Source: Bacteroidota bacterium
GTDB taxonomy: Bacteria > Bacteroidota > Bacteroidia > UBA8524
Reading direction: 5' to 3'
Length of the DNA stretch: 64,000 nt
Assembly: GCA_008933805.1 (NCBI GenBank)
Contig: WBUH01000009.1
Coordinates: forward strand, 1 to 64,000
How positions within the stretch are numbered: position 1 is the stretch's first letter; every line of letters starts with the position of its first letter. Under the pieces are notes generated by a model. That model made no database searches. It worked only from the letters and a program-made list of their open reading frames with translations, and was not told where the DNA came from. Both the position numbers and the translations under genes were made by a program. Positions 2,306-13,667 of the stretch are shown in pieces.

Positions 2306-2319
2306 GAATAGCAAGATAT

Positions 2320-2339
2320 GTTTTTGTATATACAAAAAC
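2320..2339. promoter_or_regulatory. Perfect 20-bp palindrome (likely protein-binding site)
   Basis: GTTTTTGTATATACAAAAAC is identical to its reverse complement. It lies just outside the G/C-rich oriT-like hairpins and 85 bp before the MobC-like gene. A dimeric relaxosome or repressor protein such as the ribbon-helix-helix MobC-like protein is a plausible binder; this is inference. Confidence 0.55.
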
Positions 2340-2351
2340 GATCTTGGCAAG

Positions 2352-2400
2352 GGGGGCGAACCCCCGTTGCATCCCCCGGTGAAGCGGCTTTGAGCCGCTT
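2352..2400 (+). other. oriT: Putative origin of transfer (oriT) hairpin pair
   Basis: A GGGGG-CGAA-CCCCC hairpin (2352-2365) and an AAGCGGC-TTTGA-GCCGCTT hairpin (2382-2400) lie 17 nt apart, directly upstream of the MobC-like and relaxase genes. Strong inverted repeats next to a relaxase gene are the usual layout of an oriT. The exact nick site is not identifiable from sequence alone; the stretch between or just after the hairpins is the natural candidate. Confidence 0.5.
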
Positions 2401-2758: not shown

Positions 2759-4063
2759 ATGGTTCCCAGGATTGCCAGACGCGGACACAGCTTTAAGGGC
2801 GCGGGAGCCTATTATCTGCACGATAAGCAGGCCAGCAGCAATGAGCGTGTGCTTTGGACGCATACGGTCAACCTGCCTACTAAAGACCCTGAGAAGGCCT
2901 TTCGCTGGATGGCGCATACGTCCATGAATGCAGGCCGCCTTAAAAAACAGGCAGGCATTCCCTCAACAGGACGTAAAAGCAAGGCGGGTGAAGTTTATTC
3001 ATTCAGCCTTGCATGGCATCCTGAGCAAAACCCCGACCAGAAGACCATGCTTCAATCCGCGCTGGACACACTAAACCTTTTAGGTTTGCATGAACATGAA
3101 GCCGTCATTATAGCCCATAGCGACAGACCCCATCCGCACGCCCATGTTATCTGCAATCTTGTTAACCCTGAAAACGGTAAAACAGCCGTAGTCAGCTATG
3201 ACCGTTTGACCCTTTCGCAATGGGCAGAGAATGTCGAGCGCAATGACGGTAAAATTCTGTGCGAGCAGCGGGTAATCAATAACCAGAAGCGGCGCGAGCG
3301 CGGCGCGGAAGGGATGAAAAAGCTGACCCTTGTGAAGCACCGGGAAAGCCGTTTAGACCGTGCGCAGGAAATACAGGCGCTCTATGACCAATCCGACAGC
3401 AGCGCAGCCTTTAAAGCAGCTTTGCAGGACAAAGGCTATACGCTCGCCCAGGGCGATCAGCGTGGCCTTGTGCTGGTGGATGAAGCAGGTAAAATTTATA
3501 GCCTTTCGCGGCAGCTAAAGGCTCAGCGGGCGGCTGATATGAAAGCCCGCTTGAGCGGCTTTAAAAATCTGCCCTTGGCCGTTGACCTTGCGGCGCAGCG
3601 TCAGCAGGCAGGTAAAGAAACTACAAACAAGGCCGGAAATGATTCCGGCGAACACTTGCGCAGGCTGGATGAGCTAAGGGATTGGGAACAAAAAAGCGAG
3701 CGTGAAAAACACCGCCTGAAACAACAGCAGGAAGAATTATACAGGCGCGGCGACCTATTAAAATCTATCTGGGAACTGCAAGACCAGCTTGCAGCAAAAG
3801 AAACCCTGATGGATAAACTCACGGGAAAACGCGGTCAGCTCGAAGAGCGGCTTGCAGCCTTAAATGCGAACCTTGAGACGGTAGATAAGCGCATGGCCGA
3901 GCAGCTTTCCGCTCTTGAAGCCGAGCAGCTTAAAACAAAGCCCGGTTATTCAGAGCAGCGGGAAGATGAACGGAGGGCAAAAGAACAGGACTACGAGCAG
4001 CGTATGCAGAAGTACAGGAATGCCAAGCGGGACAGAGACGGGGATAATGATTTAGGGCGTTAG
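2759..4063 (+). CDS. Relaxase / mobilization nuclease
   Basis: This 434-aa relaxase nicks oriT and pilots the DNA strand during conjugation. Residues 1-190 form the nuclease domain: Tyr residues in GAGAYYLHDK are candidate nucleophiles, and HSDRPHPHAHVICNLVNP carries the metal-binding His cluster. Residues 280-434 are charged and mostly coiled coil. The wording of the N-terminus and the His motif resembles relaxases of alphaproteobacterial plasmids more than those I know from Bacteroides elements. The C-terminus (QRMQKYRNAKRDRDGDNDLGR region) is echoed in two other proteins of the module and may be a transfer signal. Its last bases overlap the convergent gene at 4060. Family assignment is firm; phylogenetic origin is inferred. 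Confidence 0.9.
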   Translation: MVPRIARRGHSFKGAGAYYLHDKQASSNERVLWTHTVNLPTKDPEKAFRWMAHTSMNAGRLKKQAGIPSTGRKSKAGEVYSFSLAWHPEQNPDQKTMLQSALDTLNLLGLHEHEAVIIAHSDRPHPHAHVICNLVNPENGKTAVVSYDRLTLSQWAENVERNDGKILCEQRVINNQKRRERGAEGMKKLTLVKHRESRLDRAQEIQALYDQSDSSAAFKAALQDKGYTLAQGDQRGLVLVDEAGKIYSLSRQLKAQRAADMKARLSGFKNLPLAVDLAAQRQQAGKETTNKAGNDSGEHLRRLDELRDWEQKSEREKHRLKQQQEELYRRGDLLKSIWELQDQLAAKETLMDKLTGKRGQLEERLAALNANLETVDKRMAEQLSALEAEQLKTKPGYSEQREDERRAKEQDYEQRMQKYRNAKRDRDGDNDLGR

Positions 4064-4488
4064 TGAACAACCCTTGTTTCAAAACGGCTCATAATATGAT
4101 TGTTTAAGGCCTCATAAAATTCACGATTCATTACTTCATCAAAAGCCTTGTCGGCTTCCACCCGTATTTTTTCGCGGTAGCTTTCAGCTTCTTCTTCTGT
4201 TTTAAAACAAGCGTAGTAATGCTCGCTTGTAGGCTTGGGGATATGAGCCAGCATTAGCTCATAAACCTTATCAACGGCCTTTCCGGCATTTGCTAAAGCG
4301 GTATTCCAACGTTCAGCAGCTCTCTTGGGGCAGTTATCAAATGTTTCGATGATATCCATGTAGCGCAGCGTCTTTTCCTTATATTCCTCAAACGGCGTAC
4401 TGTCATCGGGAAAGTCGTCAATATCGGCAAGCTCGATATACTGCATGATTTTTTTCCGTTCCTCATCACTGATAAAAAGAAATTCCAT
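4060..4488 (-). CDS. Hypothetical acidic protein (142 aa)
   Basis: I do not recognise this protein. It is an acidic, Glu/Asp-rich, helical soluble protein without signal or membrane segment; the N-terminus EFLFISDEERKKIMQYIEL is followed by DDFPDDSTPFEEY. Its stop overlaps the relaxase stop on the opposite strand by 3 bp, and the gene runs against the two mobilization genes flanking it. It shares their G+C-rich codon use, so it probably travels with the mobilization module. A regulator or anti-restriction role would be a guess. Confidence 0.6.
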   Translation of the reverse strand: MEFLFISDEERKKIMQYIELADIDDFPDDSTPFEEYKEKTLRYMDIIETFDNCPKRAAERWNTALANAGKAVDKVYELMLAHIPKPTSEHYYACFKTEEEAESYREKIRVEADKAFDEVMNREFYEALNNHIMSRFETRVVH

Positions 4489-4555
4489 TCGCTCTGCCCC
4501 TGTTTTTTATCTTTGATATGGAAATTATATCAGAGACTATCAATCAAATCAAATT

Positions 4556-5101
4556 ATGGACAGGGAAGGTTTTAACCTCGTTGACGCAGAACTCAAAAAA
4601 GAACTTCAGGCAGATTACAAGCGAATAGATGTAGAGCTTGCCTCAAAGTATGACGCGCAACGTACAAATATTTTCGGCGCGACAGCAAAAGACAAGGCGC
4701 AGGCCAGAGCGGAGATTGACCGCCAGCAGAAGGAAGAAGCGCAAAAACTGAAGCTGGAAATGAAAGATAAACGCGAGCGTGCGCATTTTGAAGGCAAGAC
4801 GCGGCAAGAGGTAATGCAGGAACTTCAGGCCCGGGAGAAAGAGCAGATGGAACAGCGCAGGCGGCAGGAGGAAGAAAAACGCCGCGAGGAGCAGCAGCGG
4901 CGTAATGAAGAGCAGGAGCGTGTCCGTCAGCAGGAGCAATCTAACCAGCAGAAGACCGAAGCTGAGCAGAAGAAAAAGGAATTATCCGTCCAGGAGGAGT
5001 TTAACAAAAAGGCTAAAATGCAGGAGTACGACCAGCGCATGCGTGAGCACCGGGCAAACAAAGAGCAGCAGAAAGATAAGGATACCGACCGGGGCCGATG
5101 A
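4556..5101 (+). CDS. Coiled-coil mobilization accessory protein (181 aa)
   Basis: The product is almost entirely Lys/Arg/Glu/Gln-rich coiled coil from about residue 40 to 170, with no membrane segment. Its last 30 residues (MQEYDQRMREHRANKEQQ, then DKDTDRGR) match the relaxase tail in spacing and residues and end in Gly-Arg. The N-terminal 35 residues (MDREGFNLVDAELKKELQAD) are less repetitive. It lies between the relaxase and coupling-protein genes, reads with the relaxase, and its stop is 2 bp from the convergent coupling-protein stop. It probably takes part in relaxosome or coupling-protein docking, or is itself a transferred protein. That role is inferred from position and tail only. Confidence 0.6.
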   Translation: MDREGFNLVDAELKKELQADYKRIDVELASKYDAQRTNIFGATAKDKAQARAEIDRQQKEEAQKLKLEMKDKRERAHFEGKTRQEVMQELQAREKEQMEQRRRQEEEKRREEQQRRNEEQERVRQQEQSNQQKTEAEQKKKELSVQEEFNKKAKMQEYDQRMREHRANKEQQKDKDTDRGR

Positions 5102-5103
5102 TT

Positions 5104-7083
5104 TTACCAGTCTTCAAAGCAGCCTCGTAAAGCGTCTTTTGAATATTCAAGAAAACCGTGCTTGCCCAAATTTAATGGTTTATAGGAACACCGCTCCAGC
5201 CGCATCGGAAAGCCTTCCGCCGTCTTTACAATCTGGCGGTTTTCAGTTTTACCCAGCATAATCATCACCTCATTGGGCGTGAGCAAAGGGTAAATTGTTT
5301 CATGCCTGCTTTTATCCTTTCCGCTTTTTCGGACGTAGTTGGACGCGCCTAGCATTTCACTGACCCATTCGGCAGTATTCATATCATTCACGCCAAACAC
5401 CTGCACCGTTGAGTTGGCCGTCATGCTTGTCCAGCGGTCAGGATAATCCCGCTCAAGTTGACCTATATCTTGAATAAACGCCCATAACTTTATCCCGTAT
5501 CCACGCAAGATTCCGAAGCCTTCGGCTACTGCCTCAATCTTGCCGCCCAGCCGCGGCAGCTCATCGATTATAAACAAAGTCGGCAAGGTGGGCTTGTACG
5601 GGATATTTTTAACCAGCCCGAGCGAAACGGAAATCATGGTGCGCAGCCAACGCATTTGCTCTTTTATAAGGCCGTCCGGCAGCACAAAATAAACCGTTGT
5701 CGATGCCCCAATTTGTGAAAATCGAAAGTCTGAGTTAACCAGATGCTTGCGCATAGCAGGATCGCCCGCCCATTTTAATGAGCGGGATACTGTGGAAAGC
5801 ACCGAACCTTTTTCACGGTCTCCCATTTCAAGGATATTTGCCGCAACTTGTTGCGGCAGACCGCCTGCGGCATCATTGCGCAGCATTTCATATAAAAGCC
5901 TGTTTAGCAGAGAAGGGTCAGAGCTCTTAAGGCTCGTATCAACTCCGCTTATCAGGTCAAACACGAAAGGCATTGTATGGTCTTCCTCAGGATACCAGCT
6001 TAGAACGTGTGCTATTGCTCCTTCGATAAAATACTTTGCCACTTCTTCAAAATGGATGTTTTCGTCCTTCTCAGGTCTAACGCAGCCATCGGAAATAGCC
6101 GAGAGCAATTCCCTCACACGGTCGCTGTTAATATCAATTTCGCAAAGAATATTATACGACCAGCGCGGCAAATCCTTTGTTTCACCGAACGGATCAAATA
6201 CAAAGGCGCGTCCACCTCTTAAATGACGAGAAGTCCGCCCGTTGACATTATTTTGGCGGAGCCAGTTTTCATCACTTCGGCAGCGGAAGGTCTTCATTGC
6301 AAGCTCCCCTTTGGGGTCGAATACAATCACAGACCCCCTATATGTTGCCAGATTAGGCAAAAGCACGGTTGTTGATTTGCCCGAGCCTGTCATGCCGACG
6401 GTAATCATATGCGCATCGTCGTCTATGCCTATAACGCTCGGTTTCATATCATCTTCAAACAAGCTACGCCCCAGCACGAGTTTTTTGTTCTCCATATATG
6501 CGTCCGCCCGGAAGCGCTCATAGGTCGGCGTAGTTGCCCAGCGGGCGGAACCGCCGCGCCCTTCCTTGAAAATCTGTCTGAATTTCCTGTGTTCTTTTAA
6601 TTTCTGAATTTCCTCCACAACAAACACGGGAAACCGCTGGATGAACAATGGCAGAGCGATAATCAACCCTGCTATTTTCAGCAGGTTTTTCCATTCGTGT
6701 TTAAAGAGATATTCAGCATATTTTTCACTTGATGGGTTGGCATTGTATGCTTCGACAAGACCCTTGCCGATAAAGAATAAATCCCGGGCACAGAGGATAA
6801 ATACAACAACCGGAATTATATATAGAATTGTTGAGACGATTCCGCCGTTTTCCGTTCGCTCAACATGCCTTCCGGCAAGCTCGACCATTTTAAAAAGAAA
6901 ATCGACAATGATAAAATACCGGACGGCGCGTGCAGCGAAATACAAAGATTCTTCAAATCCTGTTAAATAAAAGTAATGGGTGAGCGAAGTATCGGTCGGA
7001 TAAAAAATCCAGGTTGCGATCAAGGCAAGGACTGTACAAAGGATGGTTTCCAAAAGCCACCTGTAGCCATAGGGTAATTCCAT
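5104..7083 (-). CDS. VirD4/TraG-type type IV coupling protein
   Basis: This inner-membrane ATPase of 659 aa connects the relaxosome to a type IV secretion channel. Start at the ATG (7083) gives MELPYGYRWLLETILC; an upstream TTG at 7137 is also possible. Several hydrophobic segments lie in the first 180 residues, followed by the T4CP core with Walker A GMTGSGKST and Walker B LFIIDELPRLG, and motifs FDPKGELA and FVFDPFGET. Length is normal for the family. It is transcribed after the excisionase-like gene and the 76-aa gene on the same strand. A mobilizable element carrying its own coupling protein without channel genes would have to borrow a host or plasmid channel. No such channel genes are in the window. 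Confidence 0.92.
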   Translation of the reverse strand: MELPYGYRWLLETILCTVLALIATWIFYPTDTSLTHYFYLTGFEESLYFAARAVRYFIIVDFLFKMVELAGRHVERTENGGIVSTILYIIPVVVFILCARDLFFIGKGLVEAYNANPSSEKYAEYLFKHEWKNLLKIAGLIIALPLFIQRFPVFVVEEIQKLKEHRKFRQIFKEGRGGSARWATTPTYERFRADAYMENKKLVLGRSLFEDDMKPSVIGIDDDAHMITVGMTGSGKSTTVLLPNLATYRGSVIVFDPKGELAMKTFRCRSDENWLRQNNVNGRTSRHLRGGRAFVFDPFGETKDLPRWSYNILCEIDINSDRVRELLSAISDGCVRPEKDENIHFEEVAKYFIEGAIAHVLSWYPEEDHTMPFVFDLISGVDTSLKSSDPSLLNRLLYEMLRNDAAGGLPQQVAANILEMGDREKGSVLSTVSRSLKWAGDPAMRKHLVNSDFRFSQIGASTTVYFVLPDGLIKEQMRWLRTMISVSLGLVKNIPYKPTLPTLFIIDELPRLGGKIEAVAEGFGILRGYGIKLWAFIQDIGQLERDYPDRWTSMTANSTVQVFGVNDMNTAEWVSEMLGASNYVRKSGKDKSRHETIYPLLTPNEVMIMLGKTENRQIVKTAEGFPMRLERCSYKPLNLGKHGFLEYSKDALRGCFEDW

Positions 7084-7158
7084 AGAAGTAATTGATAGTT
7101 TAATTAAAAGCGAAAATACCGCGCTGTAATTAAACAAAGGCGCAGAAAGTTTTAAAAA

Positions 7159-7389
7159 TCAGCGCCCTGCGTCTTTGCCGTCCCGGCTTTTGGTATTTTT
7201 ACTTTCGTAATGTTCCCGGATTTTATTCATCTGCGCTTCCTTTTTATATTCGAGGTGACCATCTTTCAGACCTTGCAGATATTCATTTTCTCCTTGTGTT
7301 CCAGAGAGAAGCTTTTCAAGCATACCCGGCTCAATTTCGCTTAGGAAATAGCCGTTATTAAATCCTTCGGTGTATTTTTCCTCATCCAT
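7159..7389 (-). CDS. Small mobilization-module protein with Gly-Arg tail (76 aa)
   Basis: I do not recognise the body of this protein. It is soluble and charged, starting MDEEKYTEGFNNGYFLSE and containing GLKDGHLEYKKEA. Its end (MNKIREHYESKNTKSRDGKDAGR, given here in two parts as MNKIREHYESK and NTKSRDGKDAGR) resembles the tails of the relaxase and of the coiled-coil protein. Its ATG lies 3 bp after the stop of the excisionase-like gene, so the two are co-transcribed, with the coupling protein following. It may be a small relaxosome or secretion-substrate protein. Confidence 0.6.
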   Translation of the reverse strand: MDEEKYTEGFNNGYFLSEIEPGMLEKLLSGTQGENEYLQGLKDGHLEYKKEAQMNKIREHYESKNTKSRDGKDAGR

Positions 7390-7392
7390 AAA

Positions 7393-7662
7393 TTAAAAGG
7401 TTTCTCGGGCGTTTTTATCCAAATAAGTCATGATTGAATCCCGGTCATAAAGAATGACCTTCTTCTGTGGCTGGGTAAATCTTATCCGTCCTTCATTGCG
7501 GATCTGTTGGAGCGTAGTCTTTGAAGATATGCCAAGAAGTTTCATACAATCTTCAGTGCCTATCCATTTATCCGGTTTGCGGTTTACCTCGGTGCTAAGC
7601 CTGCGTACCACCGTTTCGACCAGCTCATAGAAGGCTGGTTCATCCATGCAAATGACATTCAT
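7393..7662 (-). CDS. Excisionase-like helix-turn-helix protein (89 aa)
   Basis: A winged-helix, MerR/excisionase-type HTH is seen in KWIGTEDCMKLLGISSKTTL followed by QQIRNEGRIRFTQPQKKVILY and a final helix. This is the usual layout of the small HTH proteins beside Bacteroidota integrases, which act as excisionases or transfer-gene activators. It is the first gene of the leftward transcript that includes the 76-aa protein and the coupling protein, so it may control both excision and mobilization. It lies 3.3 kb from the integrase, which is farther than usual. Confidence 0.8.
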   Translation of the reverse strand: MNVICMDEPAFYELVETVVRRLSTEVNRKPDKWIGTEDCMKLLGISSKTTLQQIRNEGRIRFTQPQKKVILYDRDSIMTYLDKNARETF

Positions 7663-10971: not shown

Positions 10972-12192
10972 TTATTCGCCATTTATCACTAAGTCATTAT
11001 AGTTATCTAGAACATTCGTTGGCAGGCTTTTCAGATAAATCTCAGTCGTCTTCAGGCTTGAATGGCCGAGCATGGCACTGATTGCATTGAGTGGCACTTC
11101 CTTGAGCATCGCTTGCGTTGCGAAAGAATGACGGCTTACATAGCTGGTCAAGTTTTCAGGTATTTCGCACAGCGTCGCCAGCTCCTTTAATTTCTTATTA
11201 TACCGCTTCCTGGCCCATTGAATATCCTTGCTTTGCAGCATGGGCGTAGCCCTGTTTATGATAGGAAACACATATTCATTTTCGGGCTCTTGATTAATAT
11301 AGTATAAGAGAATTTTCTCAAGGTTATCGGTAAGCTTTATATCGTATAGCTTACTTGTTTTCCTGCGGCGATATTTTATCCTGCCGTTCTTTATATCTTC
11401 CTTCTTTAGGTAAGCCATATCCGTAAAGTTCATACCGTACATCATATAGCTAGCTAAAAAATAGTTTCGCGCATGAAAGCACAGTTCGCCCGGTTCAATT
11501 TCCTTCTCAATTATTTTCTTGATGTATTCCCAGTCCAGCGCCCGCTTTTGCGTAGGGACTGACTTAATTTTATAGTCATCAAAAGGATAAAGATCTTTCT
11601 CAACCAGTCCGGCCTTAATAGCCTTATTGAATAAGGAGCGGACGGCACGGATATATACTGAGAGGCCGTTGTATGAGTTGCCCTTACTCAAATGGAACGC
11701 TTCAAATTTTGTTAGAAAGCTGAAGTTGATTTCCTGAAAAAGCAGATCCCGCCCTTTAAGATATTTACTAAGCACATCTGAAACGCCTTTAAAGGATCGT
11801 GCCGTCCCAATTCTGCCTGCCTTTATCAGTTCCTCAATTTCCTGGGCAGTGAACTTGAAAAAAGACAGGCTTGCGCCATTTTGTTCAACCCTATCCCGTA
11901 GAGCGGTAATGGACATGGTGTTGAGTTGGCCAGCTTCGTTAAGCTTAAATATCACATCCATTGCCTTTGCTTTTTTCTTTTGGATGATATTATTCAAACG
12001 GCTAACTGATGACACGCCGACATAGGATTTTTTAACCTGACGGTTTTTTGCATCCCAGTCTTTTTCCAAAACACTTATGCCTGTGGGTATAGAGGTTGTA
12101 CGTTTGTTATGACCCAATCGCATCACTACCGGAAAAGTACCATCTTTTTTTGTTCTGCGAGTGTCTAAAGAAATGACTATGTTAGTATTCAC
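10972..12192 (-). CDS. int: Tyrosine recombinase (site-specific integrase)
   Basis: It integrates and excises the element. Start is set at the GTG (12192), giving NTNIVISLDTRRTKKDG, the normal N-terminus of Bacteroidota integrases; a TTG at 12231 would add 13 unlikely residues. An arm-binding N-terminus is followed by a SAM-like core-binding domain (about residues 95-200) and the catalytic domain. In the latter, YGMNFTDMAYL replaces the usual first Arg, as in IntDOT-type enzymes, and the other landmarks are RRKTSK, SRHSFAT, LGHSSLKTTEIYL and the nucleophile Tyr. It lies 145 bp from the tRNA-Pro remnant, in line with tRNA-targeted integration. Confidence 0.92.
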   Translation of the reverse strand: MNTNIVISLDTRRTKKDGTFPVVMRLGHNKRTTSIPTGISVLEKDWDAKNRQVKKSYVGVSSVSRLNNIIQKKKAKAMDVIFKLNEAGQLNTMSITALRDRVEQNGASLSFFKFTAQEIEELIKAGRIGTARSFKGVSDVLSKYLKGRDLLFQEINFSFLTKFEAFHLSKGNSYNGLSVYIRAVRSLFNKAIKAGLVEKDLYPFDDYKIKSVPTQKRALDWEYIKKIIEKEIEPGELCFHARNYFLASYMMYGMNFTDMAYLKKEDIKNGRIKYRRRKTSKLYDIKLTDNLEKILLYYINQEPENEYVFPIINRATPMLQSKDIQWARKRYNKKLKELATLCEIPENLTSYVSRHSFATQAMLKEVPLNAISAMLGHSSLKTTEIYLKSLPTNVLDNYNDLVINGE

Positions 12193-12210
12193 AAGCCGAA
12201 GGTACGAAAA

Positions 12211-12232
12211 ATTTGCACAAGATTTGCACAAG
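12211..12232. repeat. Two tandem 11-bp repeats upstream of integrase
   Basis: ATTTGCACAAG occurs twice without a gap, a period of one DNA turn, 18 bp upstream of the integrase GTG and about 105 bp from the att remnant. It could be an arm-type site for the integrase or excisionase, or an operator on the integrase promoter. Confidence 0.5.
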
Positions 12233-13019: not shown

Positions 13020-13042
13020 AAAACATACCATTTGGTATTTTT
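13020..13042. promoter_or_regulatory. TetR-type operator overlapping start of tetR
   Basis: ACATACCATTTGGTATTT is a near-palindrome ending right at the ATG (13043). Nineteen bases (13020-13038) recur unchanged at 13644-13662 behind the gene. Binding here would block transcription or translation start of the regulator itself. Confidence 0.7.
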
Positions 13043-13643: not shown

Positions 13644-13667
13644 AAAACATACCATTTGGTATGTTTT
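13644..13667. promoter_or_regulatory. Second TetR-type operator before the membrane-protein operon
   Basis: ACATACCATTTGGTATGT with A/T flanks forms a 24-bp near-perfect palindrome 13 bp upstream of the ATG at 13681. It repeats the operator in front of tetR, so one regulator probably controls both transcripts. Confidence 0.75.

Follow-up and report, generated by a model that had tools for sequence, protein, structure and literature searches.

The window analysed here is a stretch of 64,000 nucleotides of contig WBUH01000009.1 from a Bacteroidota bacterium, and its base 1 is the start of the contig (G000:C9:1). A mobilization module occupies positions 2311 to approximately 7662. It comprises, in this order, an oriT-like palindrome and the genes for a MobC/NikA-like protein, a MOBP relaxase, P142, the coiled-coil protein CC181, a VirD4-type coupling protein, P76 and an HTH_17 protein (Table 1). 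The VirD4 gene thus sits between those of CC181 and P76.

Table 1. Features of the mobilization module and the nearby recombinase gene (positions in the window)
Feature	Position	Strand	Basis or remark
oriT-like site	2311..2377	+	almost invariant before mobC in L017, L018 and L075
MobC/NikA-like relaxosome protein, 110 aa	2424..2756	+	PF21983 NikA-like 2.1e-19; PF05713 MobC 7.8e-7
MOBP-type relaxase, 434 aa, tail carrier	2759..4063	+	PF03432 Relaxase 5.4e-20
Relaxase tail, last 36 aa	3953..4060	+	score 81 with CC181 tail
P142, no shared tail	4060..4488	-	L017 homologue 1e-12; tail score 13
CC181 coiled-coil protein, tail carrier	4556..5101	+	weak L017 homologue 4e-7
CC181 tail, last 36 aa	4991..5098	+	tail alignment and profile
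VirD4-type coupling protein, 677 aa, proposed tail reader	5104..7137	-	PF02534 3e-42; PF12696 2.8e-18
P76, 76 aa, tail carrier, motifs GFN.GY and GL.DG	7159..7389	-	
P76 tail, 33 aa, extent from tail profile match	7162..7260	-	score 45 with CC181 tail
HTH_17 DNA-binding protein, no shared tail	7393..7662	-	PF12728 9.2e-7; tail score 17
Tyrosine recombinase	10972..12231	-	read from sequence, without family-library scan

The relaxase is assigned to the MOBP type with a NikA/MobC-type accessory protein and contains the motif HPHAHV. It scores 62.7 with the NCBIfam TraI/MobA(P) model against a cut-off of 250 and, being below this cut-off, is a distant member. The VirD4/TraG assignment is based on the T4SS-DNA_transf and TraG-D_C domains and the Walker motif GMTGSGKST. 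CC181 matches no Pfam or NCBIfam family, and P76 matches no Pfam family above the threshold. The end of the P142 gene overlaps the relaxase stop codon by four bases on the opposite strand; among the homologous modules described below, P142 has a homologue in L017 only.

The oriT-like site contains inverted repeats and is present in one copy in the genome. The perfect palindrome GTTTTTGTATATACAAAAAC at 2320-2339 lies within the arms CAAGATATG...CGATCTTG, after which AAGGGG...CCCCCGTTGCATCCCCC is found; the site is a putative oriT. The same palindrome in CAAG..CTTG arms (2311-2348 in the window) also occurs on conjugative plasmids of Bacteroides fragilis and Phocaeicola vulgatus (L079 near 15001 and L081 near 12001), likewise immediately upstream of mobC, and the relaxase there is barely related (24.6 bits). 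It is possibly a MobC operator or the core of an oriT, retained across unrelated relaxases.

The GC content is 46-53% at 2.0-7.0 kb vs. approximately 33% for the initial 2 kb and approximately 42% across most of the window, as expected of an acquired block. Judging from its sequence, the tyrosine recombinase is likely the integrase of the element; recombinase-like genes adjoin the modules in L018 and G757 as well. No att repeats bounding the element were identified, and its left end is possibly missing, as the contig begins at the first base of the window. A TetR-like gene flanked by a 23-bp direct repeat (96% identical; 13020-13042 and 13644-13666) was also observed. There are no mating-pore genes nearby, and the host genome (4.29 Mb, 97.7% complete) contains no match to PF03135 or TIGR03783, i.e., to VirB4 or the Bacteroidota TraG-type pore ATPase. 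With a relaxase and VirD4 of its own and no mating-pore genes, the element is a probable integrative mobilizable element; considering that the host genome lacks a pore ATPase, it must borrow the pore from a helper.

The relaxase ends in RRAKEQDYEQRMQKYRNAKRDRDGDNDLGR, CC181 in KAKMQEYDQRMREHRANKEQQKDKDTDRGR and P76 in EYKKEAQMNKIREHYESKNTKSRDGKDAGR; the genes and the ends are exactly as described in the original prediction. The shared tail begins with a charged helix, about 20 residues long, and closes with an Asp/Gly-rich end, and the window tails are mildly positive (net charge +3). The low-confidence structure models predict a helix at residues 399-424 of the relaxase (mean pLDDT 57) and at residues 43-67 of P76 (mean pLDDT 58), with disorder after the helix in both. 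A helix followed by a disordered end is the general look of short C-terminal secretion signals.

The tails (the last 36 aa) were compared by Smith-Waterman alignment with BLOSUM62. The relaxase and CC181 tails score 81; the best of 608 tails taken from other loci reaches 48, and none of 3000 shuffles (mean score 36) reaches the observed value. Internal windows of the relaxase and CC181 reach only 45 or less, so the match goes beyond coiled-coil composition. The CC181 and P76 tails score 45 (shuffle p=0.003). The direct score of the relaxase and P76 tails is 29, which is not significant alone (shuffle p=0.28); hence, P76 joins the set via CC181. The other ends in the module (MobC, P142, VirD4, the HTH protein, an Xre regulator, the integrase and an 84-aa ORF) score 13-25; against the relaxase tail, those of MobC, P142, VirD4, the HTH protein and the recombinase score 13-19 (MobC, 18). 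Searched against the 4.3-Mb genome at E<=10, a profile made from the three tails matches them and nothing else.

Searches with the relaxase led to small proteobacterial plasmids and to Bacteroidota modules on genome contigs; nothing useful was obtained with it in phages or in 396 genomes of the phylum. The query with the coiled-coil protein gave nothing useful in plasmids or in 149 related genomes. There was no useful match in viral contigs, and the same is true of the first genome scan with VirD4. Five Bacteroidota modules were compared: that of the window, L017, L018 (Flavobacterium), L019 (Saprospiraceae) and G757. The last surfaced in a later search, after the hypothesis had been formed, and played no part in forming it. 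L017 and L018 hold MobC, the relaxase, a coiled-coil protein, VirD4, P76 and the HTH protein; the CC181 counterpart in L018 was assigned by gene position. L019 has no P76 homologue, and a 225-aa coiled-coil protein occupies the P76 position. The HTH_17 protein is 52-61% identical in L017, L018 and L019, and the P76 core is conserved in L017, L018 and G757 (E from 6e-15 to 5e-9).

The genome with L017 contains a second relaxase-mobC copy (L075, 10817-12190) with the same oriT-like site. Its relaxase ends early (337 aa), the tail is absent, and there is no VirD4, coiled-coil or P76 gene nearby; this is a decayed copy without a tail.

The alignment of tails from homologous modules had been set beforehand as the test of the prediction, and the prediction passed it: the relaxase and the accessory proteins have a common tail in four of the five modules, and each module has its own version. 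The three L018 carriers end in ..REALRKQIEQDKKRDKGKDRGLSR, ..KEQLRQQLQQDRQRQQEQERDRER and ..TREKLAQQLQQGRSNDHSRGK, with pair scores of 68, 41 and 58. In L019, the relaxase ends in ..KQKRIEEIKARQLKEVNRREDKRSRDDGYGLDRG and the 225-aa protein in ..KAARLEEIKSRIGNEFDRAKEKRDRGNGIDR (score 68). These tails are unlike those of the window although the relaxase cores are 58-59% identical. G757 has the relaxase tail RRIWMEFNEIEQENNNDIDQDEGLDI, the tail RIRDEFIQIERENGLDEDADMGMEY on the P76 orthologue (E 5e-9) and the end EDQDEGLDLFLD on an 82-aa protein encoded between the relaxase and VirD4; they end in GLDI, MGMEY or LFLD. The relaxase tail there clearly matches those of the P76 orthologue and the 82-aa protein (53 and 47), and there is no match between the latter two (25). 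All of them are acidic, with a net charge of -7 for the P76 orthologue, -10 for the relaxase and -8 for the 82-aa protein. L017 has the same gene set, and no tail pair in it is significant (shuffle p 0.15-0.99). Thus, the prediction of a common C-terminal tag on the neighbours of the coupling protein is borne out in four modules and finds little sharing in L017. The proposed pattern of a basic helix, a Lys and a final Gly-Arg is not conserved: the Lys spacing and the Gly-Arg end are peculiar to the window element, and in the homologous modules the sharing is kept and the motif is lost. Since the G757 tails are acidic, the rule is the matching within a module rather than the Gly-Arg end or the positive charge; the Gly-Arg end is no conserved signature, since G757 and most proteobacterial relaxases end otherwise.

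Several observations were made on more remote loci. Nine of 31 relaxases, some of them closely related, end in hydrophobic-x-Arg (such as GIER, GFER, DLGR) vs. 53 of 703 background ORFs; these include the relaxases of L009, L015, L039, L041, L042 and the window. In Henriciella (Alphaproteobacteria; L024, 8432-8830), a 132-aa protein has an end like that of the relaxase (score 51; p=0.002 by shuffling; picked by score); this protein was left out of the main test because it was chosen by its tail score. On a Nitrosospira plasmid (L008, 2821-3054), a 77-aa protein adjoins the relaxase, and a weak W..[FY]V end common to both (p=0.02) is only suggestive of tail sharing; the transfer ATPase there is unlike VirD4 of the other modules. 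No tag sharing near VirD4 was seen in alphaproteobacterial and E. coli plasmids (L010, L013, L058-L061), and the apparent matches in the high-GC loci L020, L026 and L030 were set aside as probable spurious ORFs.

In the main test, the proteins of the five Bacteroidota modules were taken by orthology or gene position only, non-orthologous tail pairs were scored, and module labels were permuted within each ortholog class. The mean score is 45.0 within modules vs. 29.8 between modules (p=0.0003), and the excess is robust to a tail length of 25-40 residues (p from 0.0002 to 0.0007). For windows ending 36 residues before the end, the means are 19.7 within and 20.9 between modules (p=0.79), and for those ending 50 residues before the end, 18.9 and 19.7 (p=0.67). 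The tail sharing is confined to the C-terminal end.

These figures bear on two simple explanations. It is tempting to attribute the similarity to a coincidence of charged coiled-coil composition, considering that K, R, E, D and Q are abundant in all tails; however, it is reproduced neither by shuffles and internal windows nor by other module genes and upstream windows. We regard such a coincidence as extremely improbable on the whole, and for the relaxase-CC181 pair and the family-wide effect it is ruled out. Had the 3' ends been recently duplicated or converted, with no special shared function, similarity within a module would also result, and the G757 pair of the relaxase and the 82-aa protein does have the stretch DQDEGLD exactly in common, 8 of 12 codons being the same. 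However, identical tail residues have equal codons in 43 of 111 cases, which is about the codon-usage expectation, the nucleotide identity is 0.45-0.59, and the pattern recurs across modules bearing different tails. Codon agreement at the chance level means that there was no recent duplication and that the similarity has been maintained or has arisen at the protein level; copying of 3' ends is accordingly a very unlikely explanation.

The net tail charge of the relaxase correlates with that of its partners over seven modules (r=0.93 with a permutation p of 0.004; r=0.80 when G757 is left out), a set that takes in L024, with its partner picked by tail score, and the only suggestive L008; no more than five to seven modules entered the tail comparisons as a whole. 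From module to module, VirD4 identity is low (0.23-0.49), which is consistent with a fast-changing reader, and relaxase-core identity is 0.37-0.63. Tail similarity between modules rises with VirD4 identity (r=0.58, p=0.018). It also follows relaxase identity (r=0.70, p=0.036), so VirD4 is not singled out as the reader by this comparison. The all-alpha domain is the usual candidate reader within VirD4. It is acidic throughout the five modules (-5 to -11), even in G757, where the tails are acidic too; hence, simple charge pairing of the tail with this domain does not account for the charge reversal.

Type IV secretion substrates are described as ending in clusters of charged residues, which the coupling protein reads (PMC10025392, PMC6509941). 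Since short charged C-termini are known signals of this kind and VirD4 is the known receptor, VirD4 as the reader is the simplest reading of the data; the neighbours common to the tagged proteins across modules include a lone VirD4. We believe that the tail is probably an element-specific type IV secretion signal recognized by the element's own lone VirD4, with the small proteins as probable co-substrates. The coupling protein would read the tail on the relaxase, CC181 and P76, so that the same motor would receive both small proteins as well as the relaxase-DNA complex; the small proteins would then probably be sent to the recipient along with the DNA through a mating pore borrowed from a helper element. 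As to the parts of this proposal, we lean towards the docking of the tail on VirD4, and the chances of the co-transfer of the small proteins appear to us about even.

The tails could instead be an interaction helix that binds the carriers to each other or to a shared relaxosome partner such as MobC; the complex would then co-evolve, and VirD4 would not be the reader. The predicted helicity of the tails (in low-confidence models) and the abundance of coiled coils in the carriers agree with this, and a common partner would suffice for the co-variation. The G757 tails, all with a net charge of -7 to -10, disfavour direct pairing of tails; moreover, the flexible Asp/Gly-rich end that the tails also have in common is not coiled-coil-like. 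We consider the interaction helix unlikely, if worth keeping in mind. It can also be supposed that the tail is a secretion signal whose reader is supplied by the helper, as its coupling protein or its pore, and that the tails differ as the helpers differ. The element lacks its own pore in this genome, and relaxases can hold separate signals for different type IV secretion systems (PMC10025392); however, an own VirD4 is found beside the tagged genes in every tail-sharing module, and the relaxase of the decayed L075, which lacks VirD4, has no tail. A reader supplied by the helper seems to us quite unlikely.

Recognition by the element's own VirD4 has parallels in known systems. The BID domain with a charged tail, found in Bartonella effectors, toxins and alphaproteobacterial relaxases (PMC6509941), is likewise one C-terminal signal on a relaxase and unrelated proteins, and BID signals diverge together with the cognate coupling protein (PMC6509941). 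However, BID is a folded domain of about 100 aa, and the window tails have about 30 residues and occur on small proteins of a Bacteroidota mobilizable element; unlike BID, tails of the window type show complete turnover of sequence and even of charge between elements. No tagged protein scanned has a Pfam match to the BID domain. The Arg-rich C-terminal signal of Agrobacterium VirF, VirE2 and VirE3 and of RSF1010 MobA is likewise a short charged tail, and there, as in our proposal, a relaxase and non-relaxase proteins use one coupling protein (PMC10025392). The Arg motif is not a shared feature of the tails considered here; the identity with an Arg-rich positive tail of the Agrobacterium type is rejected, since the window tails have +3 but those of G757 have -7 to -10. 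The XVIPCD of Xanthomonas type IV effectors is also a shared C-terminal module and binds VirD4 (PMC10025392); it has about 120 residues, conserved motifs and a Gln-rich tail, and P76, with 76 aa in all and no Pfam match, is too short for it. By domain or motif the tails fall into none of these three classes, although they would act in a similar way.

CloDF13 (PMC11389934) and Streptococcus integrative mobilizable elements (PMC5704250) likewise have their own relaxase and VirD4 and borrow the pore. The Streptococcus elements with VirD4 have a MobC-class relaxase, and according to a 2017 review so do the few mobilizable plasmids known to encode VirD4 themselves (PMC5704250); in contrast, the window element has a MOBP relaxase and a Bacteroidota host. 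In the F plasmid pED208, proteins bearing a C-terminal or internal signal accompany the DNA into the recipient (PMC11288057); those substrates are diverse and promiscuous, and the window tail is private to its element. Open literature searches returned no report of element-specific tails common to a relaxase and small proteins, which is not proof of novelty; the short, fast-changing, element-private form of a shared secretion signal appears to be new.

Type IV secretion signals are hard to recognize, as they have no consensus; where an element repeats its tail on several unrelated proteins, comparing them is enough to expose the signal. The different tails of related elements provide natural cognate and non-cognate pairs of a tail and a coupling protein, through which the cargo choice of VirD4 becomes directly testable. 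Finding the relaxase tail on neighbouring genes is a simple way to spot candidate proteins transferred in conjugation. More tentatively, with somewhat less than even confidence, we suggest that such tails are private address tags: each element with a lone VirD4 may mark all VirD4 cargo, the relaxase as well as small proteins, with its own short tail, and the tail and the reader may change together, even with a reversal of charge. If this is true, private tags would limit the use of coupling proteins by competing elements and would deliver unknown small proteins into recipients.
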